Positions 703 through 13,056 of a stretch of DNA of 33,625 bases are shown in pieces. The notes under the pieces are model-generated. The model had not been told where the DNA came from and did no database searches. It saw only the letters and a list, made by a program, of their open reading frames with translations. The position numbers were made by a program, and so were the translations under genes. The stretch is from a virus. The DNA lies in IMG/VR virus record IMGVR_UViG_3300005613_000240, positions 1 to 33,625 of that record, one strand, 5' to 3'. Position 1 is the first letter of the stretch, and each line of letters opens with the position of its first letter.

Positions 703-731
703 AATGTAAACTAGCGATGCTTGCTTGTCAA
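703..731 (-). promoter_or_regulatory. Promoter for terL operon with GCTAG/AGCAAGC elements
   Basis: On the minus strand a perfect -35 TTGACA (731-726) is followed after 17 bases by -10 TACATT (708-703). The spacer contains AGCAAGC and CGCTAG, the same elements found inside the promoters at 1318 and 8085. It sits in the 58-base gap between terS and the GTG of the 85-residue gene, so it can drive terL independently of terS. Confidence 0.6.
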
Positions 732-734
732 AGA

Positions 735-1082
735 TTAATCACTTAGCTTTTCAATAAGTGTCTCAAGCAAAGTGTCAGTTGTTGTCTTTTCTTCGCGCTT
801 GTAGTTTGTGTAACGTCCTTGTGTACGCAACAAGAACTCGGTCATCTTTTCAGAACCACCGAGCGCCATTCTGTACGCGTTTTGACTTAAGCCGCGAATC
901 ATTTCTAGTTTCGCTTTGTCTAGCTCTTCGCGGTAATGTTTGCGTAGTGTTTTATCATCAATGTTAAAATATTGCGCAATGTCATCTTGTGTAAAACCTG
1001 CGCAAGTAAAGTCGGCGACTTTCTCGCGAGATTCAGCAGTAGGCACGTGTTCAGGCTTTCCGCCCCTTTTCTTTTCGCTCAT
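735..1082 (-). CDS. terS: Terminase small subunit
   Basis: This 115-residue protein would recognise phage DNA and recruit the large terminase for packaging. The N-terminal half (TAESREKVADF... TQDDIAQYFNIDDKTLRKHY) is a helix-turn-helix typical of small terminases, and the remainder is helical and charged. The frame is open up to 1139, but the ATG at 1082 is preceded by AAAAGGTG at good spacing and gives MSEKKRGGKP, so that start is chosen. It sits directly upstream of the terL cluster. The family call rests on the HTH, the size and the position. Confidence 0.85.
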   Translation of the reverse strand: MSEKKRGGKPEHVPTAESREKVADFTCAGFTQDDIAQYFNIDDKTLRKHYREELDKAKLEMIRGLSQNAYRMALGGSEKMTEFLLRTQGRYTNYKREEKTTTDTLLETLIEKLSD

Positions 1083-1220
1083 AAAATGTACACCTTTTAA
1101 TATCGATGGGGAATTGTTTGTACTGGTAAAGAATAACACACAATTTTTAAAATTTTAAGCGCTTCAAGCGTGTGTGCAAAAACATCTTGATTAATACAAT
1201 TAAAGTTTATTAATCAACTC

Positions 1221-1249
1221 TTGACTTGCTAGCATTAATAGTTTATTCG
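1221..1249 (+). promoter_or_regulatory. Upstream copy of TTGACTTGCTAGCA; weak promoter or second operator
   Basis: The first 14 bases repeat those at 1318-1331 exactly. The -10 position 17 bases on reads TATTCG, which is poor, so this may act mainly as a second binding site 97 bases upstream of the main promoter. Confidence 0.4.
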
Positions 1250-1317
1250 CGCGCTCATTTAATACTTAACTTGATTAATTTAATTTAAAAAAACTTAAAA
1301 TTTATTGCTAATTAGTG

Positions 1318-1346
1318 TTGACTTGCTAGCAAGCAATCACTACAAT
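1318..1346 (+). promoter_or_regulatory. Strong sigma70-type promoter with 12-bp palindromic operator
   Basis: The -35 TTGACT (1318-1323) and -10 TACAAT (1341-1346) are separated by exactly 17 bases. The perfect palindrome CTTGCTAGCAAG (1322-1333) lies across the -35 end and spacer, where a bound protein would block RNA polymerase. It drives the J-domain gene starting at 1388. Confidence 0.7.
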
Positions 1347-1387
1347 GCAATCATTAACAACGCAACAACAACTTTAAGGGATTCAAC

Positions 1388-1900
1388 ATGAAAGACAATG
1401 ATGCTTTACACATATTAGGGTTAAACAACAACGCAAAAATGGAAGACATAAAACGTTCCTATAGACGATTATGTGCAAAATATCACCCTGACCGAAACCC
1501 TGCTGGGCTTGAGATGATGAAATTAATTAACAACGCTTACGAAGCTTTACAAGGTTATATAGAAACGGGCGAATATGATTTTTCAGTGCAAGAAGAAACC
1601 GAAACAGATTACAACTACGGCGAAGAAATCAACGAAGCTTTAAGTAAAATTATAAATTTAGGCTTAGAAATTGAAGTTTGCGGTTCCTGGGTTTGGGTTT
1701 CAGGTAACACAAAACAACACAAAGATATTCTGAAAGAGTCTGGATTTAAATGGGCTTCTAAAAAGAAAATGTGGCATTTTCGCCCCAATGATTATAAAAG
1801 TTTTGGGCGGGGCAAGTGGAGTATGGAAGAAATAAGAGCCACCCATGGCAGTCAGAAAGTTAAAAACAAATCTTACGTACAAATTACAGCAACAGCATGA
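1388..1900 (+). CDS. J-domain (DnaJ-like) protein
   Basis: This 170-residue protein begins with a J domain: ALHILGLNNNAKMEDIKRSY and the diagnostic HPD at residues 33-35 (YHPDRNP), which stimulates DnaK-type Hsp70 ATPase. An acidic linker (EETETDYNYGEE) leads to a C-terminal domain of about 75 residues with SWVWVSGNT, ESGFKWASKKKMWHF and RGKWSMEEI, seen in other phage and plasmid J proteins as I recall. It lacks the Gly/Phe and zinc regions of host DnaJ. AAGGG precedes the ATG. It could recruit host DnaK for replication or assembly; which one is not visible here. Confidence 0.85.
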   Translation: MKDNDALHILGLNNNAKMEDIKRSYRRLCAKYHPDRNPAGLEMMKLINNAYEALQGYIETGEYDFSVQEETETDYNYGEEINEALSKIINLGLEIEVCGSWVWVSGNTKQHKDILKESGFKWASKKKMWHFRPNDYKSFGRGKWSMEEIRATHGSQKVKNKSYVQITATA

Positions 1901-1906
1901 ATTAAT

Positions 1907-1924
1907 TGCCCCCCCTCGGGGGCA
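1907..1924. repeat. GC-rich intergenic hairpin
   Basis: TGCCCCC and GGGGGCA form a 7-bp stem with a CCTC loop just after the J-domain gene. No T tract follows on the + strand, so it is a poor intrinsic terminator; it may be an RNA-stability hairpin or a site of partial termination. Confidence 0.5.
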
Positions 1925-1942
1925 GCATTGGAGAAATTAAAA

Positions 1943-2161
1943 ATGAGTAACAATTCTTGGGTTAATACTTTTCACAACACAAAAACTACAAGTACTTTAA
2001 ACAATAAGGAAGTTGAAACAATTATTGAAAATTTTTTAGCGGGTCGTATAGATACTTGTGATTCAGATTTTAAAACTTATTGGAAACTATTAGAGGATCT
2101 ATGTCCAAATGGGTATATTTCCAGCAAGTGTTTATGTACACATGCCATTAAACAATGCTAA
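1943..2161 (+). CDS. Hypothetical protein
   Basis: This 72-residue protein is not recognised. It starts MSNNSWVNTFHNTKTTS and ends in a cysteine-rich tail (SSKCLCTHAIKQC), which may bind metal. The ATG at 1943 has GGAG nine bases upstream; the frame is open from a TTG at 1928 without ribosome site support. It lies in the same rightward operon as the J-domain gene and the following coiled-coil gene. Confidence 0.65.
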   Translation: MSNNSWVNTFHNTKTTSTLNNKEVETIIENFLAGRIDTCDSDFKTYWKLLEDLCPNGYISSKCLCTHAIKQC

Positions 2162-2188
2162 TTAAAACTTTAACTAAGGAGGCTTTAC

Positions 2189-2479
2189 ATGTTATCACCC
2201 AACATTCTAGAAACTACTACAACTTTAATTAACAATTACAAACGCTTAAAAGCTGAAATCAAAAAGCTTGAGTCTGAAGCTAATGCGATTAAAAAAACTT
2301 TAATCACTAATTACATGAAAGACACAGACACGCTTTTAAACAATGACGGTCATGTTATCGCGACATACAAAAAAGCTATTAGGATTACTTTTGACGCAAA
2401 AACATTTGCAGCAGACCACCAATCACTTTATGACGACTACTGCATAATGAGAGAAGTTAGCACTTTTTTAGCTAAGTAA
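2189..2479 (+). CDS. Coiled-coil protein resembling the C-terminal tail of YqaJ-type exonucleases
   Basis: This 96-residue protein opens with a coiled coil (residues 10-40) followed by a compact segment (HVIATYKKAIRITFDAKTFA, then a DHQSLYDDY block). The arrangement of LLxxDGxVIATYK, then RFD-like FDAKTF, then DHxxLYxxY, resembles the region after the catalytic domain in YqaJ-like phage exonucleases, from memory. No catalytic residues are present. A perfect AAGGAGG precedes the ATG. Its stop abuts the stop of the opposite-strand gene (TAATTA). It may assist the RecT-type recombination genes encoded further right. Confidence 0.7.
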   Translation: MLSPNILETTTTLINNYKRLKAEIKKLESEANAIKKTLITNYMKDTDTLLNNDGHVIATYKKAIRITFDAKTFAADHQSLYDDYCIMREVSTFLAK

Positions 2480-2662
2480 TTACATGCCCATGGCAATTTC
2501 AAGTGCTGCATCTTTTACATGTTCTAGTACAACATCATCAGCAGTGCTTGGAGTTGCCATGGTATAAAGTTTAACAGCAAAGTAAATTGCTAAAATCATC
2601 ACAATGTAACGTTTTTGTGGAAGTTGCGGCGGAGGAAACATTCTGTGTAACCAATTTTTCAT
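2480..2662 (-). CDS. Small single-pass membrane protein
   Basis: This 60-residue protein has a positive N-terminus, a PPPQLPQ stretch, a probable membrane helix at about residues 19-35 (YIVMILAIYFAVKLYTM) and a short acidic helical tail. GGAG lies upstream of the ATG. It is the last gene of the leftward small-gene block and ends tail-to-tail with the gene at 2189. It is one of several candidates for a lysis protein, but nothing specific shows this. Confidence 0.6.
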   Translation of the reverse strand: MKNWLHRMFPPPQLPQKRYIVMILAIYFAVKLYTMATPSTADDVVLEHVKDAALEIAMGM

Positions 2663-2695
2663 AAAACATCTCCAGCAATATTCACATTTAGTGTA

Positions 2696-2872
2696 TCACA
2701 ACTTTTCTGCAAGATAATCTATTCTAGAATGTAAATGCGCAACGTCTTCTTCAAGTTTTGTTTTTAAGTAACTCATGTCTTCAACGTCGCTTAGATAACA
2801 TTTTTTAAAAGTTATGTAACACGCTGAACCGCACAAAACTCCAACAATTATGCAAAAAAGCAAACTAGCCAT
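2696..2872 (-). CDS. Small N-anchored membrane protein with helical tail
   Basis: This 58-residue protein has an N-terminal membrane helix (MASLLFCIIVGVLCGSACYI), a short basic stretch, then an amphipathic helix (EDMSYLKTKLEEDVAHLHS). AAGGATG precedes the ATG with good spacing. The arrangement, an N-terminal anchor followed by a heptad-rich tail, is that of an inner-membrane spanin in miniature, but it is much shorter than usual and the call is speculative. Confidence 0.6.
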   Translation of the reverse strand: MASLLFCIIVGVLCGSACYITFKKCYLSDVEDMSYLKTKLEEDVAHLHSRIDYLAEKL

Positions 2873-2884
2873 AAATCATCCTTA

Positions 2885-3268
2885 TTAAATTAAGTTAGCA
2901 AGATATTGAGTTGTAATGTGTATTGCATCATCACAACCAAATGCAAACGTAGCATAATATTTGCGCGCTAGCAATTTTTCATGGAATTTGACTTGATGCT
3001 CTGGCATTTTGTGATTGCGCTTGTGCTTTTGTTTCATCTCGATGAACAAGCCATGCCAATTTTCGTTAGCACAAAAAATTTGGAAATCTGGTAACCCAGC
3101 AGTCATGCCAATTTGTTTTAGTCGTTTTCCTTCAGCGAGAGACCTTTTGCCCTCGTTCACATGATGAACGCCAAAAAGTTTCGGTTGCCAAAGCAGCCAA
3201 TCATTAAAAGCTTTACTTTCTGAATACTCACTTGTTATGACTTTTGATTGTTTCATCAGCTGCAACAT
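2885..3268 (-). CDS. VRR-NUC domain nuclease
   Basis: This 127-residue protein is a PD-(D/E)xK nuclease of the virus-type replication-repair (VRR-NUC) family. The active-site pattern is visible: GLPDF (D61), FIEMKQK (E77, K79) and HQVKFHEKL (Q92), followed by YYATFAFGCDDA. Phage members are thought to cut branched DNA or act as structure-specific nucleases in recombination and replication. Translation starts inside the end of the preceding gene; the Met at 3268 and the one at 3256 are both possible and neither has a strong ribosome site. Confidence 0.85.
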   Translation of the reverse strand: MLQLMKQSKVITSEYSESKAFNDWLLWQPKLFGVHHVNEGKRSLAEGKRLKQIGMTAGLPDFQIFCANENWHGLFIEMKQKHKRNHKMPEHQVKFHEKLLARKYYATFAFGCDDAIHITTQYLANLI

Positions 3269-3422
3269 TAACTATTCGTCGAGTAATTTTTAAACCATCG
3301 TGAGCGTTTAAATCTTTAATTTCAACTTGATGAGCATGTTTACACAAACGCGTAATTTCTATAGCTAAGTCAACAGCATCTTTAATTAGCATGTCACTGC
3401 TTGTAATTGTGATTTTAATCAT
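3228..3422 (-). CDS. Hypothetical protein
   Basis: This 64-residue protein has no recognised family: MIKITITSSDMLIKDAV at the start, a mixed alpha/beta pattern and a basic end. The start overlaps the end of the membrane-protein gene at 3415 and the end overlaps the VRR-NUC start, so it sits in a tightly coupled chain. A weak GGAATGA lies upstream. Confidence 0.6.
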   Translation of the reverse strand: MIKITITSSDMLIKDAVDLAIEITRLCKHAHQVEIKDLNAHDGLKITRRIVNVAADETIKSHNK

Positions 3423-3582
3423 GGGTATTCATTCCGACTTCAAAAATTGCTAAAGCTGCAAAAACATTAATTACAACCATTAGTATTTTTAAACTTGTTG
3501 GGATGTAAAATGAAATACCCCTGTAAGTTATACAAGTTACTATCAAAGCAAGTACAAATTGCTCTACATTATAAATTGACAT
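3415..3582 (-). CDS. Two-helix membrane protein, possible holin
   Basis: This 55-residue protein starts MSIYNVEQFVLALIVTCITY, with one hydrophobic segment at about residues 8-20 and a second at about 31-47 (LKILMVVINVFAALAIF). Two short hydrophobic segments in a protein this small fit a class II holin, but the size is at the lower limit and no endolysin lies beside it. No strong ribosome site is evident. It overlaps the following gene by eight bases. Confidence 0.55.
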   Translation of the reverse strand: MSIYNVEQFVLALIVTCITYRGISFYIPTSLKILMVVINVFAALAIFEVGMNTHD

Positions 3583-3601
3583 TTAAACCCCATTTTTTTA
3601 A

Positions 3602-3619
3602 AATGAAATTGGTTTCATT
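3602..3619. repeat. Perfect inverted repeat AATGAAA/TTTCATT
   Basis: Arms of seven bases flank a TTGG loop in the 113-base gap between the HNH gene and the two-helix membrane protein. It could be an operator for the membrane-protein genes or a small RNA hairpin. Confidence 0.4.
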
Positions 3620-3664
3620 ACCACTTCTCGTTTTGGATCTATAAAATTGAATTTATTTATTAAC

Positions 3665-3697
3665 TGGGAACAATTTTTAAATTGCTCCCATTTTTTT
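3665..3697 (+). terminator. Intrinsic terminator oriented rightward
   Basis: TGGGAACAATTT and AAATTGCTCCCA form a long stem with one mismatch, followed by seven Ts on the + strand. No rightward gene lies directly upstream; the nearest ends at 2479. It may stop antisense read-through from the J-domain operon. The same hairpin follows the leftward HNH stop but has no T tract in that direction. Confidence 0.6.
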
Positions 3698-4310
3698 ACT
3701 CGTTAGATTTTTTTTCAAATTCTGGAAGCTCATCAATACAGCGTAACAAATCATCTAAATAATGACCGTTTTTGCTGTGTTTTTCAGTCAAATTCATTAA
3801 ATTGTTTACTGCATTTTGTAAGATGTACAAAGCTTCACGAGTAACACCTTCATTTTCCGGTTCAAATGTTTCGTTGTTTGCAAGTCTTAGTATTAAATCG
3901 CTGTTAAGACATAAATTTTTAATTGCAGCTGTCATTATTGCGTTACCGTGTTTTAAACAAGCATCTTGCAAAAGTGGTACAAAGTCGCTTAATTGAGTGT
4001 ACCAAAAAACCTGTTCCAAACCTTGAAGAGTTTTGTGCCTCTCAAACTTTTTAATATTAGATTCCATTTGATGACAGCTACGGCACAATGTTACCAATGC
4101 TTCATCAGGATACTCCCAAGGCAATAACCTACCATTAGAGTCTTTCATGTAGTACTTGTGATGTACTTCAAGATAATCTTTCGATTTACACTTTGCGCAC
4201 TGATGATTGTAAAGTTGCCAAATTTCTTTTTTACGTTGATACCATTCTTCAGATTGACAAAGTTCAGACCAACTTTTCATTTGTAATTCACTTCTGTGTG
4301 ATTGATTCAT
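3696..4310 (-). CDS. HNH endonuclease with long C-terminal extension
   Basis: This 204-residue protein has an N-terminal HNH nuclease: a zinc pair C38-x2-C41 (QCAKCK), the catalytic HH at 50-51 (LEVHHKYY) and C76-x2-C79-H80 (TLCRSCHQ). Residues 85-204 form a helical extension of unknown role. AAGGAT precedes the ATG. The gene is not beside terL, where packaging-associated HNH proteins usually sit, so it could be a homing-type enzyme or a replication or defence nuclease. Confidence 0.85.
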   Translation of the reverse strand: MNQSHRSELQMKSWSELCQSEEWYQRKKEIWQLYNHQCAKCKSKDYLEVHHKYYMKDSNGRLLPWEYPDEALVTLCRSCHQMESNIKKFERHKTLQGLEQVFWYTQLSDFVPLLQDACLKHGNAIMTAAIKNLCLNSDLILRLANNETFEPENEGVTREALYILQNAVNNLMNLTEKHSKNGHYLDDLLRCIDELPEFEKKSNE

Positions 4311-4437
4311 AAAACTAATCCTTGTAATTAATGTAAATTTTGCTTGCTTGCTAATTGTGTAACAAAAGCTCTAAACAATCAAGCTTTTAAAATTAGTGTA
4401 TACTGTAAGTGTATTAACAGTAAGTGAGGGTTATAAA
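4311..4437. promoter_or_regulatory. Divergent promoter region of HNH gene and 91-residue gene
   Basis: A -10-like TATACT (4399-4404) points right, but a clear -35 is missing. Downstream are two direct repeats, ACTGTAAGTG (4402-4411) and ACAGTAAGTG (4417-4426), 15 bases apart, placed where a repressor would sit. A TTGCTTGCTTGCTAA run at 4340-4354 resembles the AGCAAGC part of the shared promoter motif. Confidence 0.4.
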
Positions 4438-4713
4438 ATGACTAAGCGCAAAAAACGACCTTATCCAAAAGTGAGATTTTTTAAATCAAAAAAGTCTGCT
4501 CAAAAAGCTGTTAAACCAAAGGACAATGAGGAAATTACTGAAAAGGATTTTTTAAATAAGTCAGCTTCTGAGGAACAAGAAATTGAAACAGGCGATCAAG
4601 CTGCGCCCGTTCAAATCACAAATGTTAATGTACACATTGCACAAGATGAGGATGCTGGAGCTGGATGTGGTGAAGTCTGCAAAGCGTTTTTTAGTTGCCT
4701 TCGTCCATCCTAA
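4438..4713 (+). CDS. Small charged protein, basic N-terminus and acidic middle
   Basis: This 91-residue protein starts MTKRKKRPYPKVRFFKSKKS, continues with an acidic stretch and ends with cysteines (GAGCGEVCKAFFSCLRPS). It is not recognised. The ATG at 4438 has GAGGG upstream; the frame is open to 4396, but that earlier start lies in the promoter-like region. It is a lone rightward gene between two leftward blocks with its own terminator, so it is an independent unit, probably early or a moron. Confidence 0.65.
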   Translation: MTKRKKRPYPKVRFFKSKKSAQKAVKPKDNEEITEKDFLNKSASEEQEIETGDQAAPVQITNVNVHIAQDEDAGAGCGEVCKAFFSCLRPS

Positions 4714-4715
4714 AT

Positions 4716-4738
4716 AAAGCCCCCGTGAGGGGGTTTTT
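4716..4738 (+). terminator. Intrinsic terminator of the 91-residue gene
   Basis: AAAGCCCCC, loop GTGA, GGGGGTTTTT: a five-GC-pair stem extended by A-T pairs and followed by a T run, three bases after the stop codon. Confidence 0.85.
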
Positions 4739-4847
4739 CCCCCCTTTTTTAAAACTGAATTAAAACCCCTGTAAGCAACTTTTTCTTAAACTAATACAAT
4801 CTTACTAATTAATCACAAAGTACGCTCCAGGGGCTTTAAATTAGCTC

Positions 4848-6134
4848 CTAGTAGCCTATATAGTCTTTAAACTGCAAATACTCAAATTTCTTTTCTAAAT
4901 TAATTTGGCCAGTTCTGCCGTTACGATTTTTTGTAATGTCAAGAATAGCTTTTTGAGGTTCTTTCGGGTCTTCATTAATGAACATGATGATATCAGCATC
5001 ATGAACAATGTGACCGCTTTGCCTGATTTCGCTCATCTTAATTTTATCTTTGCTGTTTGCGCCAGTTCGATTTAATTGAGTTAAAGCAATTACAGGAATA
5101 TCAAAATCTTTTGCAAGAATTTTTAACTCACGCGATATTTTGCCAAGTGCTAGTGTTGCATTTTCTCCTTCTTGCTCCATCAAACCCAAGTAATCAACAA
5201 ATACTGCATCAAGTCCGTGTTGCGATTTAACGCTACGGGCGTATTGCCTCATTTCAAATACTGACATCCCGCACTTGTCGTTGATAAAAGCTTTAAAGTT
5301 TGCGTTTTTAAGCTCAATACCTGCTTCCGCTAATTTGATAAAATCATTCGTTGAAAGTTTTTTTGGATTAAAGACCTTGTCGCCAATGACTTGCGCTTGT
5401 GTTGATAGCATACGTTGCACAAGTTCGCGGGCTGTCATTTCCATGCTAAAAAATATGGCTGACTTCTTTTGCTTCAAAGTAATGTCTTTAAACATGTTTA
5501 TTGCTAAAGTGGTTTTTCCGCTCCCGCTATGAGCACCCAAAATTATTAAGTTACCTTTTTGAAACCCGCCGCTGAAACTGTCTAATTTTCTAAAACCGCT
5601 TCCGATACCGGTGAGGTCGCCCTCTGTAGAAGCTTGTTCATCAATCCAGGTCATAGCATTATTAATTTGTTCGTCAAAAGAATGTACGCCTACTGTTGCA
5701 TCATTCTCTATTGCAGTAAGACCTTTTCTAAGTCGATCAATGTAAGAATCATCATCATTGTTGATTTGATTCATTACTTCATTAATCATAGCAATCGTTT
5801 TGCGCTTGTTCGCTGCTTTCTTAACAATGTGGGCATGATGCTTAAGATTTGCAGTGCTAAAAGTGTTGTTTGCAATTTCAGCTAAGTGAATAAAAATGTC
5901 ATTGGCAGTTTCTCCGTCTTCAGGTTTTATTTTCTCACTAACTGAAAGAAAGTCTATTGCTGATGTTTGAGAGTTGCTCCTAAGGTCTAGAATTGCTTTG
6001 TATGCCCTTTGTAGTTTCCAATCACTAAAATCTTCTGGTTTTAAAATGTCCTTAATGTCATCTAACTGATTTTCAAACATGCCTTTAATTAAACTTCCAA
6101 TAACTGATACTTCTGCAATGTGATGTGTACTCAT
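4848..6134 (-). CDS. dnaB: Replicative DNA helicase, DnaB family
   Basis: This 428-residue hexameric 5'-3' helicase would unwind DNA at the phage fork, like P22 gp12. The N-terminal DnaB domain spans about residues 1-110; the RecA-like core has Walker A GAHSGSGKT at about 200-208, SMEM at 230-233, Walker B VFVDYLGLM at 311-319, LTQLNR at 351-356 and KNRNGRTG at 402-409. The length is near that of other phage DnaB proteins. AAGGAA precedes the ATG, ten bases after the initiator gene, as in the P22 18-12 pair. The phage therefore does not need the host helicase. Confidence 0.95.
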   Translation of the reverse strand: MSTHHIAEVSVIGSLIKGMFENQLDDIKDILKPEDFSDWKLQRAYKAILDLRSNSQTSAIDFLSVSEKIKPEDGETANDIFIHLAEIANNTFSTANLKHHAHIVKKAANKRKTIAMINEVMNQINNDDDSYIDRLRKGLTAIENDATVGVHSFDEQINNAMTWIDEQASTEGDLTGIGSGFRKLDSFSGGFQKGNLIILGAHSGSGKTTLAINMFKDITLKQKKSAIFFSMEMTARELVQRMLSTQAQVIGDKVFNPKKLSTNDFIKLAEAGIELKNANFKAFINDKCGMSVFEMRQYARSVKSQHGLDAVFVDYLGLMEQEGENATLALGKISRELKILAKDFDIPVIALTQLNRTGANSKDKIKMSEIRQSGHIVHDADIIMFINEDPKEPQKAILDITKNRNGRTGQINLEKKFEYLQFKDYIGY

Positions 6135-6144
6135 AATTAATTCC

Positions 6145-6951
6145 TTAGGCTGATTTAAAGTTTTTCATGTAACTATTACTAAAATCTTTAGAAATAGGTT
6201 TACGGCTTTCAAGTGGTTCAATGATGTTATTTGATACGTATGGTTTACACGGTGATTTAACGAAGCCTGCAACAGTCTCGATCTCGTCTTCCCAGCGCTT
6301 GTTGTTTAAGTAAGTACTAGGATGAGGTATGTACCCATCCAACCACTTTTTATCAGTCTTAGATGATTGCTCAATGTGTTTTAAAATTACATCTATCTGC
6401 TTGTACAGTTTCTTTGACTTAAAAGTAGTCATGGCTCGTGATTTGTTTTTCTTAACTGGATAAGCTTTCCAAAACAATTCCCATGCTTGTGCAAATTCAT
6501 TTGCACTAGAAGTTAAATTATCTGAGTTTACATCTGGTATAGGTCGGCCAGTTCGGTCAATTGCATGTGACCGTTCGGTCAATTGCATATGACCGTTCGG
6601 GCAAATGAGGTTTTTACTGGGCTGATAGGGATTTAAAGCAGGAAACAAGGCTAAACCTTGATCAGTAAGTGTATACCATTTGGTCCTGTCATAACCCTTT
6701 GTATTATAATTGCCCGACATCAATAAGTTCTTTTTTAAACAATTGTTAATTACAGTTCTTACTGATTTTGCTGTCCAATATGGAAACAATGTAGCAAATG
6801 CTTCATGAGAATTATAGGTCCAATATCTGCCATCATGAAAATTTTTGTTGTTGGCTTTGTTTTGATGAATCCAAAAAGCAATGTTATTTAGAAAAATTGC
6901 TTCATTAACACCGTATTTCGTAGCTATAAATGTATTAAAAATGTGATGCAT
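6145..6951 (-). CDS. Replication initiation protein (lambda O / P22 gp18-like role)
   Basis: This 268-residue protein has an N-terminal winged-helix region (residues about 10-110, e.g. SHEAFATLFPYWTAKSVRTV, ending LTDQGLALF), a repeat-encoded linker (about 115-135), and a C-terminal domain with FWKAYPVKKNKSRA and GYIPHPSTYLNNKRWEDE typical of phage replication proteins. It should bind the iterons in its own gene and load the helicase encoded next. AAAAGGAG lies before the ATG, within a leader that carries a short upstream frame sharing the first five codons. The precise family is not certain. Confidence 0.85.
   Translation of the reverse strand: MHHIFNTFIATKYGVNEAIFLNNIAFWIHQNKANNKNFHDGRYWTYNSHEAFATLFPYWTAKSVRTVINNCLKKNLLMSGNYNTKGYDRTKWYTLTDQGLALFPALNPYQPSKNLICPNGHMQLTERSHAIDRTGRPIPDVNSDNLTSSANEFAQAWELFWKAYPVKKNKSRAMTTFKSKKLYKQIDVILKHIEQSSKTDKKWLDGYIPHPSTYLNNKRWEDEIETVAGFVKSPCKPYVSNNIIEPLESRKPISKDFSNSYMKNFKSA
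6551..6610. repeat. Iteron-like 22-bp direct repeats inside the initiator gene, probable origin
   Basis: Two head-to-tail 22-bp repeats (6551-6572 and 6573-6594) differ at one base, and a third partial copy starts at 6595 (GTTCGG). Each complete copy holds an internal dyad GGTCA...TGACC. Lambda O-type origins have the same build: dyad-containing iterons in the middle of the initiator gene. AT-rich sequence follows toward 6480-6540. Confidence 0.75.
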
Positions 6952-6965
6952 AACTTAAACTCCTT

Positions 6966-7049
6966 TTAAGCTAACAATTCCATTTGGCGATTTCGCCAAA
7001 TGAGTAAACATACGGGTTGAGGGTAATTTTGTTCAAAAATGTGATGCAT
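6966..7049 (-). CDS. Upstream leader peptide sharing its first codons with the initiator
   Basis: A 27-codon frame starts at 7049 with the codons for MHHIF, identical to the start of the initiator gene at 6951, and then diverges (EQNYPQPVCLLIWRNRQ). It has its own ribosome site (AAAAAGGAAA). Its stop falls 12 bases before the initiator ATG and a palindrome lies in its middle. It may be a translational leader controlling initiator synthesis or a remnant of a duplicated start. Confidence 0.45.
   Translation of the reverse strand: MHHIFEQNYPQPVCLLIWRNRQMELLA
6981..7002. repeat. Perfect palindrome in the initiator leader
   Basis: CATTTGGCGA and TCGCCAAATG form ten-base arms around two Ts, inside the 27-codon leader frame and 30 bases upstream of the initiator ATG. 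It could form a strong hairpin in the mRNA or be a protein-binding operator. Confidence 0.7.
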
Positions 7050-7233
7050 TAAAAATTTCCTTTTTGTGATTAATCCAATCCTGGGTTTAAATTTGATTTA
7101 AAACTTTTAATTTACATTAAATTTATGGCATAATTGAGTTTCCTTTTAGTGATTAATTTGTGTTTCCTTATAAAAGACCTTGAAGTAATGTTGTGTGCCA
7201 ATGCCCTTTCCAGGAAGGGCAAAAGCATTAATT
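7050..7233. promoter_or_regulatory. AT-rich leader with repeated ribosome-site modules
   Basis: This stretch precedes the leader peptide in the leftward operon. A 19-base sequence occurs twice with one mismatch (7056-7074 and 7139-7157); on the minus strand it reads ATTAATCAC, A or T, AAAAGGAAA and looks like a ribosome site. The copy at 7139 is followed by ATGCCATAA, a two-codon frame. A 38-codon frame at 7112-7228 has no ribosome site. GCCCTT/AAGGGC at 7203-7220 forms a small hairpin after the AlpA-like gene. Confidence 0.5.
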
Positions 7234-7434
7234 TTAAACATTGTTAAACTTTTCATCCAACCAATTGTTGATGTCTTTAACACGCCAAGCCAATAACCCA
7301 TTAATTTTAGCTGGTTCTGGGAATTCTCCTTTTTTCCACCAACGTTGCAATGTTTTCTTTGTGCGACCTGTTAGTTTTACAATGTCTGGCATAAAGTAAA
7401 TTTCTTTCTGAATTTTTCGTTCATTTTGACCCAT
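7234..7434 (-). CDS. AlpA-like helix-turn-helix regulator
   Basis: This 66-residue protein resembles AlpA/excisionase-type DNA-binding proteins: MPDIVKLTGRTKKTLQRWW is the HTH and GLLAWRVKDINNWLDE is the usual wing and helix. The ribosome site AGGAGGT five bases before the ATG is near perfect. It lies between the lipoprotein and initiator genes, so regulation of the replication operon is the natural role. With no integrase in the window, an excisionase role is unlikely. Confidence 0.8.
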   Translation of the reverse strand: MGQNERKIQKEIYFMPDIVKLTGRTKKTLQRWWKKGEFPEPAKINGLLAWRVKDINNWLDEKFNNV

Positions 7435-7467
7435 AATGACCTCCTAATGACGTACTTTGACGTTTTT

Positions 7468-7566
7468 TTAAATGTACCTTTCGCCTAAACAAAAAGCAAT
7501 AGTTTTTTGGAAAAGTTTGCGATAGAATAGTTGAGTTAATCGCCTCCTTACGATTGATAATTCCAT
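7468..7566 (-). CDS. Possible 32-residue basic peptide
   Basis: An ATG at 7566 with AAGGGAAG about eight bases upstream opens a 32-codon frame (start MELSIVRRRLTQLFYRK), rich in arginine, leucine and aromatic residues. The product is not recognised and the frame may be chance in an otherwise noncoding gap; two ACGTCA repeats (minus strand) lie just downstream near 7449-7463. Confidence 0.25.
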   Translation of the reverse strand: MELSIVRRRLTQLFYRKLFQKTIAFCLGERYI

Positions 7567-7570
7567 TTGA

Positions 7571-7608
7571 CTTCCCTTGGCTCTTTCCTGACAACAAGCT
7601 AAGGGAAG
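7571..7608. repeat. Long stem-loop after the lipoprotein gene
   Basis: CTTCCCTTGGCT and AGCTAAGGGAAG pair over 12 positions with one G-U, around a 14-base loop, eight bases after the leftward lipoprotein stop. No T tract follows on the minus strand, so it is more likely a partial terminator or mRNA-protecting hairpin. Confidence 0.55.
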
Positions 7609-7615
7609 GATTTAT

Positions 7616-7843
7616 TTACAAGTCGTAGTCTTCATTAATACGATGGTAAGTCACCATTTTGTTTGACCCGTCTTTAGACTTAACTTCGTGATATTTGTAA
7701 TCTTCAGAATCCCGTATCACTACACCCTCCCCTCTCGATTTGTGTGTGTGCTCGTTACATCCTACTAATTTATACCCCCCTACGCATGTACAAGCGGGTA
7801 GGGCGGTTGTTATCAATACAATTGCTAAAAATTTGTTAATCAT
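7616..7843 (-). CDS. Small secreted lipoprotein
   Basis: This 75-residue protein starts MINKFLAIVLITTALPAC: a lysine, a hydrophobic segment and a lipobox LPAC with Cys18 as the expected lipidated residue. The mature part is short, hydrophilic and has two more cysteines (CVGGYKLVGC). AAAGGAT lies before the ATG at 7843; a TTG two codons earlier is less likely. Phage lipoproteins often act in superinfection exclusion (Llp, Cor) or as outer-membrane spanins; here it leads the replication operon, so exclusion early in infection is the better guess. Confidence 0.7.
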   Translation of the reverse strand: MINKFLAIVLITTALPACTCVGGYKLVGCNEHTHKSRGEGVVIRDSEDYKYHEVKSKDGSNKMVTYHRINEDYDL

Positions 7844-7871
7844 TTTCAAATCCTTTGTTGCGTTAATGAAG

Positions 7872-7904
7872 TTGATATGATATCATGCAAATCTTTAAAG
7901 TAAA
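7872..7904. promoter_or_regulatory. Divergent promoter pair around palindrome ATGATATCAT
   Basis: Leftward: TTTACT (7904-7899), 16 bases, TATCAT (7882-7877), serving the lipoprotein-replication operon. Rightward: TTGATA (7872-7877), 16 bases, TTTAAA (7894-7899), serving the RHH gene. The palindrome ATGATATCAT at 7877-7886 overlaps the leftward -10 and the rightward -35, so one protein could switch both. Confidence 0.45.
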
Positions 7905-7933
7905 CCCCTTTTACACAATTTGAGGAAAGAAAA

Positions 7934-8101
7934 ATGGATCAAGATTTCAAAGTAGTATACGCACGTATTAGTCCTGAAGATCACATGGACTTTAGAATGC
8001 ACTGCGTAAAGACCGAACAGTCAATGAACATTGTAGTTGCTAAATTAATTAAAAGTTATTTGGAAAAAAATCTTGGAAAAGGTGTTGACATAGATTGCTA
8101 G
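7934..8101 (+). CDS. Small ribbon-helix-helix-like protein 1
   Basis: This 55-residue protein has the layout of Arc/CopG-type DNA-binding proteins: a beta strand (FKVVYARIS) followed by two helices (PEDHMDFRMHCVKTEQ, then SMNIVVAKLIKSYLEKN). GAGG is eight bases before the ATG. Such proteins bind short palindromes as dimers of dimers. The promoter of the next gene, carrying GCTAGC, overlaps its 3' end. The fold is inferred from the pattern only. Confidence 0.65.
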   Translation: MDQDFKVVYARISPEDHMDFRMHCVKTEQSMNIVVAKLIKSYLEKNLGKGVDIDC

Positions 8102-8112
8102 CTTGCTATAAT
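8085..8112 (+). promoter_or_regulatory. Consensus sigma70 promoter with GCTAGC in the spacer
   Basis: TTGACA (8085-8090) and TATAAT (8107-8112) are both perfect, 16 bases apart. The spacer holds TTGCTAGCTTGC, matching the operator-like element of the promoters at 1221, 1318 and 731. It overlaps the last codons and stop of the preceding gene and starts the long rightward operon. Confidence 0.8.
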
Positions 8113-8149: not shown

Positions 8150-8314
8150 ATGTTACACCAAGACACACTGAAGAAAACTTTTAAGGACGTAGCTATTAGC
8201 AGTAACGCTTGGAAAAAATTGCAAATTGATGCAATACAAAGTGAGTTATCAGTAGCCGAAGTTATTGCAAAGTATTTAGAGGAGAAAGCTAGCACGCAGA
8301 ATGTTAAAAAGTAA
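8150..8314 (+). CDS. Small ribbon-helix-helix-like protein 2
   Basis: This 54-residue protein has the same layout as its upstream neighbour: a strand (KDVAISSNAW), a helix (KKLQIDAIQSE) and a second helix after a serine (LSVAEVIAKYLEEKA). The two may be distant paralogs. ACGGAG precedes the ATG. It is the first gene after the consensus promoter at 8085, a typical position for an autoregulator. The hairpin at 8330 follows. Confidence 0.65.
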   Translation: MLHQDTLKKTFKDVAISSNAWKKLQIDAIQSELSVAEVIAKYLEEKASTQNVKK

Positions 8315-8329
8315 CTAGCAACAGGTATT

Positions 8330-8355
8330 ACTAGGGGGCCACTATTCCCCCTAGT
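8330..8355. repeat. Nine-base-pair GC-rich hairpin
   Basis: ACTAGGGGG and CCCCCTAGT pair perfectly around an eight-base loop. AAATG rather than Ts follows, so full termination is unlikely; attenuation or mRNA protection between the RHH gene and the rest of the operon is possible. Confidence 0.6.
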
Positions 8356-8386
8356 AAATGCACATTAATTAACGGAGAAAAAATCA

Positions 8387-8539
8387 ATGAACAATGAAAT
8401 TGTAGTCATTTTACCGTACATAAATCAACCCATAAAATACGAATCATCTCAACAAGTTCAGTTACAAGATGACCATGTTTTGTGCCCAATGTGCGAAATA
8501 TGGCACCATAACAATACTTTTTGTCAAGCTAACTTATAA
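8387..8539 (+). CDS. Small zinc-ribbon peptide
   Basis: This 50-residue protein has a possible metal site near its end: C33-x2-C36, H40/H41 and C46 (LCPMCEIWHHNNTFC). The first 30 residues are polar and unrecognised. ACGGAG precedes the ATG and the next gene starts 11 bases after its stop. Confidence 0.6.
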   Translation: MNNEIVVILPYINQPIKYESSQQVQLQDDHVLCPMCEIWHHNNTFCQANL

Positions 8540-8550
8540 GGAAGACTATT

Positions 8551-8904
8551 ATGACTTACACAATTCCAAAATTTTTATTCGAAAAACCTATTTATGACTT
8601 AGTAGAAGCTTTTGTAGCTGACGGTGCGACAAGTTACAGCAAACTTAGCAGTTTAGACAAAGATGACATTGTATGCGCTATTAGAAAAGTTTTAGGCCCA
8701 GATGCTTACAGCTTATTAATTGACTTTGAAAACTTTGAAAATGTTATGAACTCATACTGTAGTTTTTTAAAAACTGCTAACAGCGAAGACGCTTATGAAT
8801 TTATGTGCGATTTACGCAAAGGTTCACACGAAGTATACGCTTTTGATTTGGACATGCTTTTTGATTACGTTGTAGAACTTAACACAAAGCTTAGGAGCGC
8901 ATAA
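8551..8904 (+). CDS. Hypothetical acidic protein
   Basis: This 117-residue protein, starting MTYTIPKFLFEKPIYDLVEA, is probably all-helical and acidic, with many aspartates and aromatics. No family is recognised. AAGGAAG lies before the ATG. It is followed one base after its stop by a membrane-protein gene in the same operon. Acidic helical early proteins of this size can be DNA mimics or inhibitors, but nothing here proves it. Confidence 0.65.
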   Translation: MTYTIPKFLFEKPIYDLVEAFVADGATSYSKLSSLDKDDIVCAIRKVLGPDAYSLLIDFENFENVMNSYCSFLKTANSEDAYEFMCDLRKGSHEVYAFDLDMLFDYVVELNTKLRSA

Positions 8905-8905
8905 C

Positions 8906-9073
8906 ATGAAGGATCGCATTACGTCTAAGGAAAGACTCAAAGGTTTGGAAAAAAAAGAATTACCTGCACCCGCTTGGAAAGAAGCAGCAGCAGGATTTTT
9001 AATATTAGTTGGCTTTGTAGTATTTACTTACGTTGCCACGCACAAAATAGAAATTTTTGGGGTAGTTTTATGA
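8906..9073 (+). CDS. Small tail-anchored membrane protein
   Basis: This 55-residue protein has a charged N-terminal half (MKDRITSKERLKGLEKKELP) and a hydrophobic helix at about residues 27-45 (AAAGFLILVGFVVFTYVA). It overlaps the RecT-family gene by ATGA, so translation is coupled. AGGAG lies 11 bases upstream. The role is unknown. Confidence 0.6.
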   Translation: MKDRITSKERLKGLEKKELPAPAWKEAAAGFLILVGFVVFTYVATHKIEIFGVVL

Positions 9074-9903
9074 CTGAATTGACAACAACATCTAACAAAC
9101 CTTTTTCTATGGCTCCTCGCAATCTTAGCGAGGCCATGGAATTTGCTAAAATGGTTAGTCAAAGTAACTTTTGCCCTAGCTCAATGCAGGGAAAACCAGC
9201 CGACATTTTAATGGCTTTACAAATGGGTGCAGAAATTGGATTAAATCCAATGCAGGCTATACAAAACATTTGTGTTATTAACGGTAAACCAGCTTTATGG
9301 GGTGACGCTTTACTGGCTGTAGCAATTAACAGTCCTAATTATGTATCCCATGAAGAATGGGTTGAAGGAAGCATTGAAGAAAAAAACTTAACGGCTTTTT
9401 GTAAAGTTATTCGTAAAAACTCTCCAGAGCATATCTCAAAATTTAGCATGGATGACGCTAAAACGGCTCAATTATGGGGTAAACGTGGGCCTTGGTCACA
9501 ATATCCTGCAAGAATGTTGCAAATGCGTGCCCGAGCTTTTGCTTTGCGTGATAAATTTGGTGACGCTTTACGCGGAATGCAAAGCGCGGAAGAAGTTAGA
9601 GATTATCAGGTAGACACAAAACCACATGTAAACTTACCGTATCAAGTCCAAGAAGTTCAGCCTGTTGAACCTTTAGACCAAGAAGTATTGAAGCAGCATT
9701 TAGAAGACATACAAGCTTGTGACAGCGAAGAAAACTTGAAAGCTACGTTTGTAGCTATTACTAAAGAAAAAGCTGTGCGAGCAGATAGAGAAGCTCTTGA
9801 AATGATTATTGCTGCTAAGGATGCCAAGAAAGCAGAACTCGATAACAAAAGCACTGATGAATTTATTGAGGCTTTAGATTCCGAGGAATCAGACAATGGA
9901 TAG
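9070..9903 (+). CDS. recT: RecT-family single-strand annealing protein
   Basis: This 277-residue recombinase would coat and anneal single-stranded DNA in phage recombination and concatemer formation. Family features are plain: ILMALQMGAEIGLNPMQAIQ, then VINGKPALWGDAL, and later WSQYPARMLQMRARAFALRD with the DALRG and AEEVRD motifs. The C-terminal third is acidic and helical. The ATG at 9070 overlaps the preceding stop (ATGA); the frame is open from 8974, but that region encodes the membrane protein in another frame. No exonuclease partner lies next to it. Confidence 0.9.
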   Translation: MTELTTTSNKPFSMAPRNLSEAMEFAKMVSQSNFCPSSMQGKPADILMALQMGAEIGLNPMQAIQNICVINGKPALWGDALLAVAINSPNYVSHEEWVEGSIEEKNLTAFCKVIRKNSPEHISKFSMDDAKTAQLWGKRGPWSQYPARMLQMRARAFALRDKFGDALRGMQSAEEVRDYQVDTKPHVNLPYQVQEVQPVEPLDQEVLKQHLEDIQACDSEENLKATFVAITKEKAVRADREALEMIIAAKDAKKAELDNKSTDEFIEALDSEESDNG

Positions 9904-10447
9904 TCTTAAACTTTTTATATCAACGCTACAAAAATTGTTTGTGGCGTTAATGGCAATGTTTTTAAAAACTAAAATCCCAGCTTTACAAGTAAAAAATGAT
10001 GCGAATGTACAAAAAGTTAAACTTGTTGGCATAGAGTTGGAGGAAAAAGTACAACCTGCCAAATGTGTTAACAATTTTAAAACTAATTTTAAACAGGATG
10101 AAGAAATGTTTACCACAATGAAATTACTTAACCAATTTGTGTTAATTGATGAGGATTATCTTATGGACAGAAATACTGCAAACTTGTTTGACCGTGGATA
10201 TGTATCTAAAACTACTTTTAAAAACTTTATTGAAAAAAACAAACAGTGCATTTATCTTTACACCTCAGACAGAAAACAAGGCTTTGAAAGAGTTATACCT
10301 AAAACCGCTCCAGGCATTAATACATTTTTGTCTAAGACCAGCCAAAACTTTTTTAAACCATGGCATGACGTAATGATGGAAGGCATTCAAGTTACAAATA
10401 AAGAACGTGAGTTTATTGTTGCTAAACCACGTGAATGGAAACCCTAA
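9896..10447 (+). CDS. Hypothetical protein
   Basis: This 183-residue protein starts MDSLKLFISTLQKLFVALMA, hydrophobic enough for an amphipathic or membrane-associated helix. The C-terminal half (from about residue 70) is basic and aromatic (ENKAL-like frames aside, QCIYLYTSDRKQGFERVI). GAGG precedes the ATG, which overlaps the RecT stop by eight bases. An internal ATG at 10105 could give a shorter product of the second domain only. No family is recognised. Confidence 0.65.
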   Translation: MDSLKLFISTLQKLFVALMAMFLKTKIPALQVKNDANVQKVKLVGIELEEKVQPAKCVNNFKTNFKQDEEMFTTMKLLNQFVLIDEDYLMDRNTANLFDRGYVSKTTFKNFIEKNKQCIYLYTSDRKQGFERVIPKTAPGINTFLSKTSQNFFKPWHDVMMEGIQVTNKEREFIVAKPREWKP

Positions 10448-10476
10448 ACTAAACTAAACTTTACAAGGAAAAATTT

Positions 10477-10839
10477 ATGAAGAACGATTTTACAAAAAAA
10501 TTTTTTGAATTAATGCAAGAGTATCAAGATTGTGATTTAAGTAAAGCACCTAAATCTAATGCAATTTACATGGTTAGAACTTACAGTGCTGGAGTATTTT
10601 TTGGGGAAATAGTTGAAAGGAACGGTAAAGAAGTTGAAATGGCAAATGCTCGAAGGGTCTACTATTGGGATGGTGCTGCAACTTTATCTCAACTTGCTAC
10701 AGATGGAACTTCAAAACCAGAAAATTGCAAATTTCCTTGTGCTGTAGAAACAGTTTTTCTAACTGAAGTTATCGAAATCATTCCCATGACCGACAAAGCC
10801 ATTAAATCTTTAAGCAGTGTAGAAATATGGAGTGCTTAA
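10477..10839 (+). CDS. DUF6948-like phage protein
   Basis: This 120-residue protein contains YMVRTYSAGVFFGEI, then GKEVEMANARRVYYWDGAAT and a C-terminal LTEVIEIIPMTDKAIKSL. That succession matches a widespread phage family that I recall as DUF6948; the number was not checked. In other phages it is also followed by a glycine-rich gene, as here. AAGGAAAA precedes the ATG. The function is unknown. Confidence 0.75.
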   Translation: MKNDFTKKFFELMQEYQDCDLSKAPKSNAIYMVRTYSAGVFFGEIVERNGKEVEMANARRVYYWDGAATLSQLATDGTSKPENCKFPCAVETVFLTEVIEIIPMTDKAIKSLSSVEIWSA

Positions 10840-11084
10840 TTACTGAAATACATAAATCGGGCTTTGGCGGTGGCTCTGCTTCTGGATATGGCTCTGACTC
10901 TGGCTCTGGCTATGGCTTGGGCCGTGGCTATGGCTTGGGCCGTGGCTTTGGCTCTGGCTTTGGCTATGACTCTATCAATGGCCATGGCGGTGGCTTTGGC
11001 GATGATGATGGCTTTGGCGATGGCGGTGGCGATGGCTATGGATATGGCTCTGACGATGGCGATGGCGATGGAGGTTGGGAATGA
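10827..11084 (+). CDS. Glycine-rich protein 1
   Basis: This 85-residue protein starts inside the end of the DUF6948-like gene (13-base overlap; MECLITEIHKS). It then consists of Gly alternating with Tyr, Ser, Phe, Asp or Arg and ends DGGWE. The codons for GGWE (GGAGGTTGGGAA) form the ribosome site of the next gene, which begins in the ATGA overlap. Such low-complexity proteins are common beside DUF6948 genes; no role is established to my knowledge. Confidence 0.7.
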   Translation: MECLITEIHKSGFGGGSASGYGSDSGSGYGLGRGYGLGRGFGSGFGYDSINGHGGGFGDDDGFGDGGGDGYGYGSDDGDGDGGWE

Positions 11085-11449
11085 AAGATTTTGACTATGA
11101 CTCTGTGAGAGGCCATGGCCATGGCGGTGGCTATGGCTCTGGAGGTGGCACTAACTATGGCGCTGGCTATGGCGATGGAGGTTGGGAATGAACGATTTCG
11201 GCTATGGCGGTGGCAATGGCTCTGGAGGTAGCTCTGGCTTTGACTCTGGATATGGCTCTGGAGAGGGCTCTGGCCATGACTATGGCGATGGCTCTGGATA
11301 TGGCTCTGGCTCTGGCTATGACTATGGCGATGGCTCTGGATGTGGCTCTGGCTATGGCTCTGGCCATGACTATGGCAATGGCTCTGGATATGGCTCTGGC
11401 TCTGGCGATGGCTCTGGCGATGACTATGGCGATGGATTTGGAGATTGTA
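10859..11449. repeat. Hexanucleotide-type low-complexity tract coding the glycine-rich proteins
   Basis: About 590 bases are built from GGC followed by TCT, TAT, GAT or GGT. GGC-start hexamers lack stops in several frames, so long open frames rich in Ala/Met/Leu (+) and Ser/His/Gln (-) appear in parallel; these are shadows. The base composition is far more GC-rich than the surroundings. Confidence 0.85.
11081..11191 (+). CDS. Glycine-rich protein 2 (short)
   Basis: This 36-residue protein starts MKDFDYDSVRGHGHGGG, is Gly/Tyr/His-rich and ends GDGGWE like its upstream neighbour. It is joined to both neighbours by ATGA overlaps. The 22 bases at each end junction (11064-11085 and 11171-11192) are identical, so this unit probably arose by duplication of a junction cassette. 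Confidence 0.6.
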   Translation: MKDFDYDSVRGHGHGGGYGSGGGTNYGAGYGDGGWE

Positions 11450-11454
11450 AATGA
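11188..11454 (+). CDS. Glycine-rich protein 3
   Basis: This 88-residue protein starts MNDFGYGGGNGSGG, continues with repeats of the type GSGYGSG and HDYGDGSG, and ends GDGFGDCK. The ATG at 11188 has GGAGGTTGG just upstream. Its stop overlaps the Gp157 start (ATGA). It uses two codon-scale repeats, GGCTCT and GGCGAT/GGCTAT. Confidence 0.7.
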   Translation: MNDFGYGGGNGSGGSSGFDSGYGSGEGSGHDYGDGSGYGSGSGYDYGDGSGCGSGYGSGHDYGNGSGYGSGSGDGSGDDYGDGFGDCK

Positions 11455-11942
11455 AACCACTATATGAACTTACTGAAAAGTTTTTGCAATTAGCTGACAA
11501 ATTAAGCGAATGCGATGAAATTACAGATGAACAACTAAGCGAAATTAATGCTTCTGAAGATGACCTTAAAGCTAAAATCTGTAACGTAGCAGCATTTATT
11601 AAAAACTTAGAACTTGAAGTTGATGCAACTACAAAAGTAATTGGGGAATTAACTGAACGACTTACAAAGGCAAACAACAAAATGGAAAGTTTAAAAGCTT
11701 ATTTAGCATTTCAAATGGATAAAGCGCAAATCAAGGAAGTTAAAAGTGATATGTTTAACGTGAAACTTAAAACTAATCCTCCAAAAGTTAAGATTTTTGA
11801 CGAAACACAAGTTGAACCCGTGTATTTGAAAGAAAAGGTAACTACTACCGTTAACAAAAAGCTTATCAAGCAAGATTTACAGGATGGGGTAGTTTTAGAT
11901 TGGGCAGTTTTAGAAAACGAACGTAAGGTGCAAATTAAATGA
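11451..11942 (+). CDS. Gp157-family recombination-associated protein
   Basis: This 163-residue protein matches the siphovirus Gp157 pattern: a long N-terminal coiled coil (residues about 20-100, with LTERLTKANNKMESLKAYLA), FQMDKAQIKEVKSDMFNVKL, NPPKVKIFDETQ and a C-terminal KKLIKQDLQDG. Gp157 genes usually sit next to RecT or Erf-type annealing genes, as here within 1.6 kb. The exact role is not established; a recombination or replication accessory is likely. Confidence 0.85.
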   Translation: MKPLYELTEKFLQLADKLSECDEITDEQLSEINASEDDLKAKICNVAAFIKNLELEVDATTKVIGELTERLTKANNKMESLKAYLAFQMDKAQIKEVKSDMFNVKLKTNPPKVKIFDETQVEPVYLKEKVTTTVNKKLIKQDLQDGVVLDWAVLENERKVQIK

Positions 11943-12208
11943 GTCTATGTCACGTACCAAACACCAACATGAATGATGTTGAAAAGGAAATTGAAAAACG
12001 TTACTTCGAACTTTCAGCATTAATTGCTGACTTTACCAAAGATGTCACAGATCAATCTTCAGTTGCTCGTTATGACATGACATGCCAACTTTTAACACAA
12101 ATAATTAATGTTTTGTTACCTGAAACTGCTGGTTTAGATGATCAAATTGCATTTGTAGCTGCATTACTATGCGATAATCACTATGATGATTTCGATAATT
12201 TGCATTAA
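11939..12208 (+). CDS. Hypothetical helical protein
   Basis: This 89-residue protein overlaps the Gp157 stop by ATGA. A later ATG at 11969 (MNDVEKEIEKRYFEL) is an alternative start. It is mostly helical and acidic with no recognised family. It is the last gene of the long rightward operon; a new promoter overlaps its 3' end. Confidence 0.6.
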   Translation: MSLCHVPNTNMNDVEKEIEKRYFELSALIADFTKDVTDQSSVARYDMTCQLLTQIINVLLPETAGLDDQIAFVAALLCDNHYDDFDNLH

Positions 12209-12228
12209 ATCCTAATTTTTAGGATAAT
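12200..12228 (+). promoter_or_regulatory. Promoter with overlapping inverted repeat ATCCTAA/TTAGGAT
   Basis: TTGCAT (12200-12205) and GATAAT (12223-12228) are 17 bases apart. A perfect seven-base inverted repeat with a three-base loop (12209-12225) fills the spacer and enters the -10, as an operator would. It would drive the tail-domain gene at 12263. Confidence 0.55.
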
Positions 12229-12262
12229 GTTTGAGCTACTTAACTTTTCAAGGAAGAAAAAA

Positions 12263-12823: not shown

Positions 12824-12843
12824 TTTAACTTTGGAGATTTACT

Positions 12844-13056
12844 ATGAAAGACAACGGAAATTACGGTGCTGTTGAAGGTACAAACTACTGCATGGATAGC
12901 ATGAATGCTAGAAATGTTAAGGAAATGAATGACAAGATGGGGTACCACAATGTAAACGATATGGCAAATACTGGCAAAGCTCCAACCAAGCCAACAGGTG
13001 TTGCTACCAACTCTCAACATGGCCCAATGGCCGCTAACCCACGCAAAAACGACTAA
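12844..13056 (+). CDS. Small hydrophilic protein
   Basis: This 70-residue protein, starting MKDNGNYGAVEGTNYCMDSM, is rich in Asn, Met and Gly and ends with a basic tail (AANPRKND). No family is recognised. TGGAG lies upstream of the ATG. It follows the tail-domain gene by 20 bases and probably shares its transcript; the hairpin at 13061 ends it. Confidence 0.65.
   Translation: MKDNGNYGAVEGTNYCMDSMNARNVKEMNDKMGYHNVNDMANTGKAPTKPTGVATNSQHGPMAANPRKND

Follow-up and report, generated by a model that had tools for sequence, protein, structure and literature searches.

Does a short word that recurs in several promoters of a phage mark the operator of a single regulator, and which protein would bind it? 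A first-pass annotation raised this question for the promoters before terL, a J-domain gene and the RHH/recombination genes, and proposed one regulator over late and early operons, with two small RHH-like proteins as the obvious candidates. The window (the whole stretch of DNA analysed) is a virus genome of 33,625 bases, IMG/VR record IMGVR_UViG_3300005613_000240. Since terL is divided between both record ends (3-419 and 32413-33624, both on the minus strand), the genome is circularly cut and nearly complete. It encodes a P22-type portal protein (phrog_156; 27% identity to those of Vibrio and Shewanella phages), and a protein family search revealed a RecT-like protein and a helicase of the DnaB type. 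No match was found when phage records were searched at the nucleotide level, and Rfam and tRNA scans were empty. A terL scan of a genome collection gave a single metagenome contig labelled Alphaproteobacteria, which is too little for naming the host. In agreement with the initial remark that no CI-type repressor is visible, family and profile searches detected no CI, Cro or integrase among the tested proteins of the phage.

Promoters and operator-like sites

Promoters were called with a sigma70 matrix, and the hits were filtered by orientation and intergenic location. Sites D, C and A (Table 1) are the three top-scoring gene-directed sigma70-like promoters of the genome, and all three carry the core WWGCWAGC near TTGAC. 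Their layouts are TTGACA-AGCAAGCATCGCTAGTT-TACATT (A, read from 731 to 703 on the minus strand), TTGACT-TGCTAGCAAGCAATCAC-TACAAT (C) and TTGACA-TAGATTGCTAGCTTGC-TATAAT (D). TTGACWWGCWAGCA is common to A, B and C and occurs nowhere else in the genome, and C and D have TTGCTAGC plus AGCAAGC in common. The palindrome described at 1322-1333 within C, CTTGCTAGCAAG, is indeed exact and has a single occurrence. In D, the core begins 5 bases past TTGAC; the distance from TTGAC to the element varies among the sites from 2 to 7 or more bases, which argues for an operator rather than a fixed promoter element.

The quoted TTGAC sites and motif letters were all found in place, but not all of these sites are promoters: B (TTGACTTGCTAGCATTAATAG at 1221) has no usable −10 and was rejected. 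It makes better sense as an additional site, located 97 bp upstream of C. The further site suspected at 4340 is present with 2 mismatches to the C site, although no strong promoter overlapping it was found in the sigma70 matrix scan. As for the late genes, the proposal holds only for site A, before a small ORF and terL, whereas the promoter-like site before the head genes (27812, minus strand) is without the element.

Table 1 Sites, operons and candidate regulator genes of the window
Feature	Position	Strand	Remarks
Site A, promoter with operator-like spacer TTGACAAGCAAGCATCGCTAGTTTACATT	703-731	−	Score 11.2; upstream of ORF 419-676 and terL
Site B, extra operator-like site TTGACTTGCTAGCAT	1221-1235	+	Same 14-mer as C; below promoter cut-off
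Site C, left-early promoter, predicted operator TTGCTAGCAAGCAA in spacer	1318-1352	+	Score 12.1; three overlapping cores
Left-early operon under C	1388-2479	+	J-domain protein (DnaJ PF00226, E=6e-14), two small ORFs
Possible further site TTGCTTGCTTGCTAA	4340-4354		Between HNH gene and ORF 4438-4713
AlpA/HTH_17-like protein	7234-7434	−	HTH_17 E=1.5e-4, phrog_66 E=1.5e-9; rival regulator
Perfect palindrome ATGATATCAT	7877-7886		Upstream of RHH1; single exact copy in genome
RHH1, Arc/ParG-like, 55 aa	7934-8101	+	Favoured candidate regulator
Site D, right-early promoter, predicted operator TTGCTAGCTTGC in spacer	8085-8112	+	Score 13.4; best promoter of the genome
RHH2, RHH-like, 54 aa	8150-8314	+	First gene under D; second candidate
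Right-early operon under D	8150-13056	+	RHH2, small ORFs, RecT-like (PF03837), Gp157-like (Sipho_Gp157 E=8e-35); extent according to gene order

Frequency of the element

Whether the motif is equally frequent outside promoters, which was named at the outset as a ground for dismissing it, depends on how much of it is counted. Bare GCTAGC was observed 5 times, compared with a mean of 5.6 in 1000 dinucleotide shuffles; as its count matches the shuffle expectation, it was rejected as a stand-alone enriched word. For the fuller motif the objection does not hold. TTGCTAGC is weakly enriched (5 versus 1.6, equalled in 3.2% of shuffles), and TTGAC followed after 0-7 bases by TTGCTAGC was observed three times against 0.02 expected, a count attained in none of the 1000 shuffles. 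This composite pattern had been set after the sites had been seen, and an independent blind word screen was therefore run with 7- to 10-mers in intergenic DNA, which makes up about 7% of the genome. Both GCTAGCAA (4 of 5 copies intergenic) and AGCAAGCA (4 of 4) came out near the top, and the 4340 site was recovered as well. Of the 13 clusters formed by WWGCWAGC, five are intergenic, namely A, B, C, 4340 and D (binomial p=0.0015). Cores overlap in four clusters, every one of them intergenic (B, C, 4340 and D). The shared operator-like element is real.

Conservation in close relatives

Related phages were scanned for the motif, as the first-pass annotation had recommended. A and B are kept in close relatives; other terL relatives have different words. 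Three contigs share terL at about 98%, and two of them (L019 and L020) cover site A. There, some 27 nt spanning the −35 and the spacer are conserved except for a single substitution (C to T, resulting in TTGCTAG), while the leader below has diverged by indels and other changes. Site B is also kept in L019, but the entire surrounding region is highly conserved in this contig, so that the conservation of B says little. The L019 contig stops after TTGACACGCT within C, and none of the close relatives reaches D. No counterpart of site A or of the 4340 site was shown in the other relatives.

The DNA separating terS from the J-domain gene contains a hairpin, TTGATTAATA-N11-TATTAATCAA (1188-1219). In L019 (approximately 108-145), the 11-nt loop, which is CAATTAAAGTT in the window phage, is present in exact inversion and reads AACTTTAATTG; to judge from the two sequences, the difference is a micro-inversion between inverted repeats.

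Early promoters and candidate regulators of terL relatives

Whole records of the terL relatives (G001 and following) were taken and the gene-directed promoters were listed for each. In many of these phages, one and the same word, private to the phage or its near kin, occurs in the left-early promoter and in the promoter next to the regulator: TTGGGTAT in G014, TTGTAATA in G021, G023 and G025, CCGGTCAA in G013 and G019, TTGCGCTA in G012 and ATGATAYYAYGGTATYAT in G022. The 18-bp operator-like site of G022 (within three mismatches) is confined to the two early promoters, apart from a diverged third copy upstream of the RHH gene. When left and right promoters were compared in hand-picked pairs, some of which had been chosen with prior knowledge of shared words, the mean score was 14.3 within a phage and 9.3 between phages (permutation p<5e-5). 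Because the choice was partly informed, the test was repeated with automatic picking, which gave 12.1 within and 8.7 between phages (p<2e-5). The C-D pair scores 14, whereas the rest of its row and column does not exceed 12. The early promoters of G006 and G007 have no common word within each phage, and those of G006 are without the word of the window phage. Relatives of the J-domain protein are not whole-genome relatives and the motif is absent from them; the RecT relatives were likewise of no help.

Since the relatives exhibit the same wiring with another word and often another kind of regulator, the element most probably marks the docking site of a switch protein of the phage itself. The proposal of one regulator over several operons is well supported by these comparisons: in the window phage and also in most relatives, a phage-specific word is common to the left- and right-early promoters.

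Twelve terL relatives encode a Cro-like protein of 59-78 aa (phrog_409), mostly beside the right-early promoter; the two that were tested matched P22_Cro PF14549 with E=2e-6 and 5e-5, under the curated cut-off. When a clade-specific Cro HMM was run against all ORFs of at least 35 aa of the window phage, no Cro was detected, the best hit being the AlpA-like protein (E=0.51). In the terL tree, the window phage falls with G001, G005-G010 and G022 into a supported clade (98/93) that has no Cro-like member. In four clade members (the window phage, G007, G009 and G022), the right-early −35 lies within the final 16-29 bases of a small RHH-like gene; G001 and G005, which are partial records without the early region, stand outside this count, as do G008 and G010. 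The right-early TTGAC of G007, G009 and G022 is encoded by the conserved C-terminal KLT of the RHH gene, and G007 has a second RHH-like gene past the promoter, as in the window phage. The gene of the candidate regulator adjoins the right-early promoter: the 3' end of RHH1 extends into D, and RHH2 follows. G007, G009 and G022 likewise have the RHH gene next to this promoter.

A tentative reading, whose prospects we put somewhat short of even, is that within one terL lineage the early repressor was exchanged between P22-Cro-like HTH and RHH, two unrelated folds, without a change in the wiring, in which one private operator serves both early promoters and the regulator sits beside the right one. 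The RHH branch would have its right-early promoter embedded in the 3' end of the regulator gene, the product of which would, in the window phage, act on the terL promoter as well.

Candidate regulator proteins

The suggestion that the RHH-like proteins are the regulators has been strengthened, because the relatives devoid of Cro have an RHH gene at the same place; the assignment of the 54-residue protein, RHH2, depends mainly on a pooled profile. RHH1 matches Arc-like phrog_3180 (E=0.0011) and ParG (E=0.015), below the curated cut-off. It is the positional counterpart of the RHH genes in G007, G009 and G022, the latter two having a single RHH gene. Against the profile of these three proteins, the hhalign probability was 63 for RHH1 and 7 for RHH2, and the beta-strand arginine which is invariant in the three phages is, in our own reading of the alignment, present in RHH1 and absent in RHH2. 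Searches of Pfam, NCBIfam and phrog gave no single-family match for RHH2, which is weakly similar to the second RHH protein of G007 (phmmer E=0.08). It is a candidate since, as the first gene under D, it stands where an autoregulator would be expected.

RHH1 and RHH2 had no match in protein searches of viral contigs, phage records and 23 records of relatives; the RHH relatives came to light only when a sensitive phmmer search covered every ORF of the terL relatives. The RHH profile pooled with the relatives matches the solved CopG-family protein 9kkd (E=1.4e-6) and omega proteins. Weak single matches together with this pooled-profile match to solved RHH proteins suggest the RHH fold of the candidates; single-sequence AlphaFold2, which cannot decide the fold, rendered RHH2 as one long helix and RHH1 with a pLDDT of 63. 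We estimate that RHH1 has about an even chance of being the binder of the predicted operator, and for RHH2 the chance appears modest. The palindrome ATGATATCAT is possibly a separate autoregulatory site of RHH1.

Proposed circuit and alternative explanations

We consider it fairly probable that the element is the putative operator of a phage-encoded early repressor, an RHH protein standing where relatives have Cro. The predicted operator is situated between the −35 and −10 of C and D and also in A, with B as an extra copy. After infection, the host polymerase would read C, D and A; the RHH1/RHH2 locus would then supply a small RHH protein that binds the TTGCTAGC/AAGCAAGC cores, covers the spacer and turns down all three promoters, including the one making RHH2. 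This protein would thereby do the job of the P22-Cro-like protein in related phages. We infer from sequence comparison that a protein binds the word, which protein it is, and that its effect is repression and not activation. The preservation of A next to a diverged leader counts for the operator reading, whereas G006 and G007, which belong to the same clade and have no shared early word, count against an RHH operator.

A different phage protein, most probably the AlpA/HTH_17-like one, may instead use the element as its operator, acting as a repressor or an activator, with the RHH proteins binding elsewhere, e.g. at ATGATATCAT. This protein has a clear HTH, its gene adjoins the RHH locus and it heads the right-early operon in the sister phage G006; moreover, RHH1 is preceded by a palindrome different from the element. 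We nevertheless hold this explanation to be unlikely, given that the AlpA-like gene is encoded on the opposite strand, where no element-bearing promoter precedes it, that G006 has the AlpA-like protein and lacks the word, and that the RHH arrangement is seen in G007, G009 and G022. Binding by a host regulator, or a promoter feature for the host polymerase with no phage protein involved, would fit the fact that the word always accompanies strong TTGAC promoters, but the variable distance from TTGAC, the other words private to each phage in the strong promoters of relatives, and sites 4340 and B, which are not strong promoters, make it quite improbable. Chance likeness or the copying of one promoter segment (shared descent) is very unlikely: although GCTAGC alone occurs at the expected frequency, the composite pattern was defined post hoc and B and C have a 14-mer in common, the blind screen recovers the motif, A is conserved against its diverged leader, words are shared within the same genome across the terL relatives, and outside the core A and D are not copies of C.

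Comparison with known systems

The circuit proposed here is of a kind known from two phage systems. Cro of lambda and P22 acts at shared operators of two early promoters. The window phage would resemble this circuit in having a single small repressor, the regulator at the right promoter and the same operator word in its two early promoters, and a P22_Cro-like protein is encoded by the 12 terL relatives mentioned above. Unlike in the Cro circuit, neither a Cro-like nor a CI protein was detected among the tested proteins of the window phage, and the RHH protein would stand in; both early operons have the same direction, and an extra site precedes terL. P22 Arc belongs to the RHH proteins and dampens lytic transcription through an operator that lies between the −35 and the −10. 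A small putative RHH protein, a predicted operator in the promoter spacer and independence from lysogeny genes are common features. However, Arc acts at P-ant/arc in the immI region, whereas the word of the window phage is found in the two early promoters and upstream of terL, and the sequence match to Arc-like families is weak. Omega/CopG-type RHH regulators control plasmid copy number and partition. Small RHH dimers and short repeated boxes in several promoters would be shared with them, and the pooled profile matches both types, but the boxes are different and no partition gene was seen beside the RHH genes of the window phage.

A literature search, with most subscription journals beyond its reach, found no published description of the arrangement. 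The replacement of Cro by an RHH protein in one lineage and the extension to terL would be new. If the reading is true, these phages represent a natural series in which the logic of the early switch is kept while the regulator fold and the DNA word change, and regulator replacement and regulator/operator co-evolution become directly testable. Several small RHH and Cro-like repressors would gain predicted operators, and tiny proteins annotated as hypothetical would gain a role.

Other features of the genomes

A second word, ATTAATCA, is concentrated in intergenic DNA to the same degree as the operator-like word (734, 1188, 1209, 1272, 4808, 7067 and 7150); its copies at 7067 and 7150 sit in a repeated leader, ATTAATCACNAAAAGGAAA. 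Two 22-nt tandem repeats (6551-6594) are located inside a replication-type gene (6145-6951), and the counterpart gene of G006 contains three 22-nt repeats of another sequence (L109 17246-17312). The arrangement resembles an initiator gene with an iteron origin in its interior, as in lambda O. A short frame on the minus strand (7025-7052), starting MHHIF, repeats the start of the same gene (MHHIFNTFI), as if its 5' end had been duplicated. A simple-repeat stretch at 10827-11467 holds two overlapping low-complexity frames, one Gly-rich and the other Ala/Met-rich. The terL of G022 (L146 9351-12005) is interrupted by about 1.1 kb and yet forms one open frame of 884 aa, which suggests an intein; the terL of G019 is also split.
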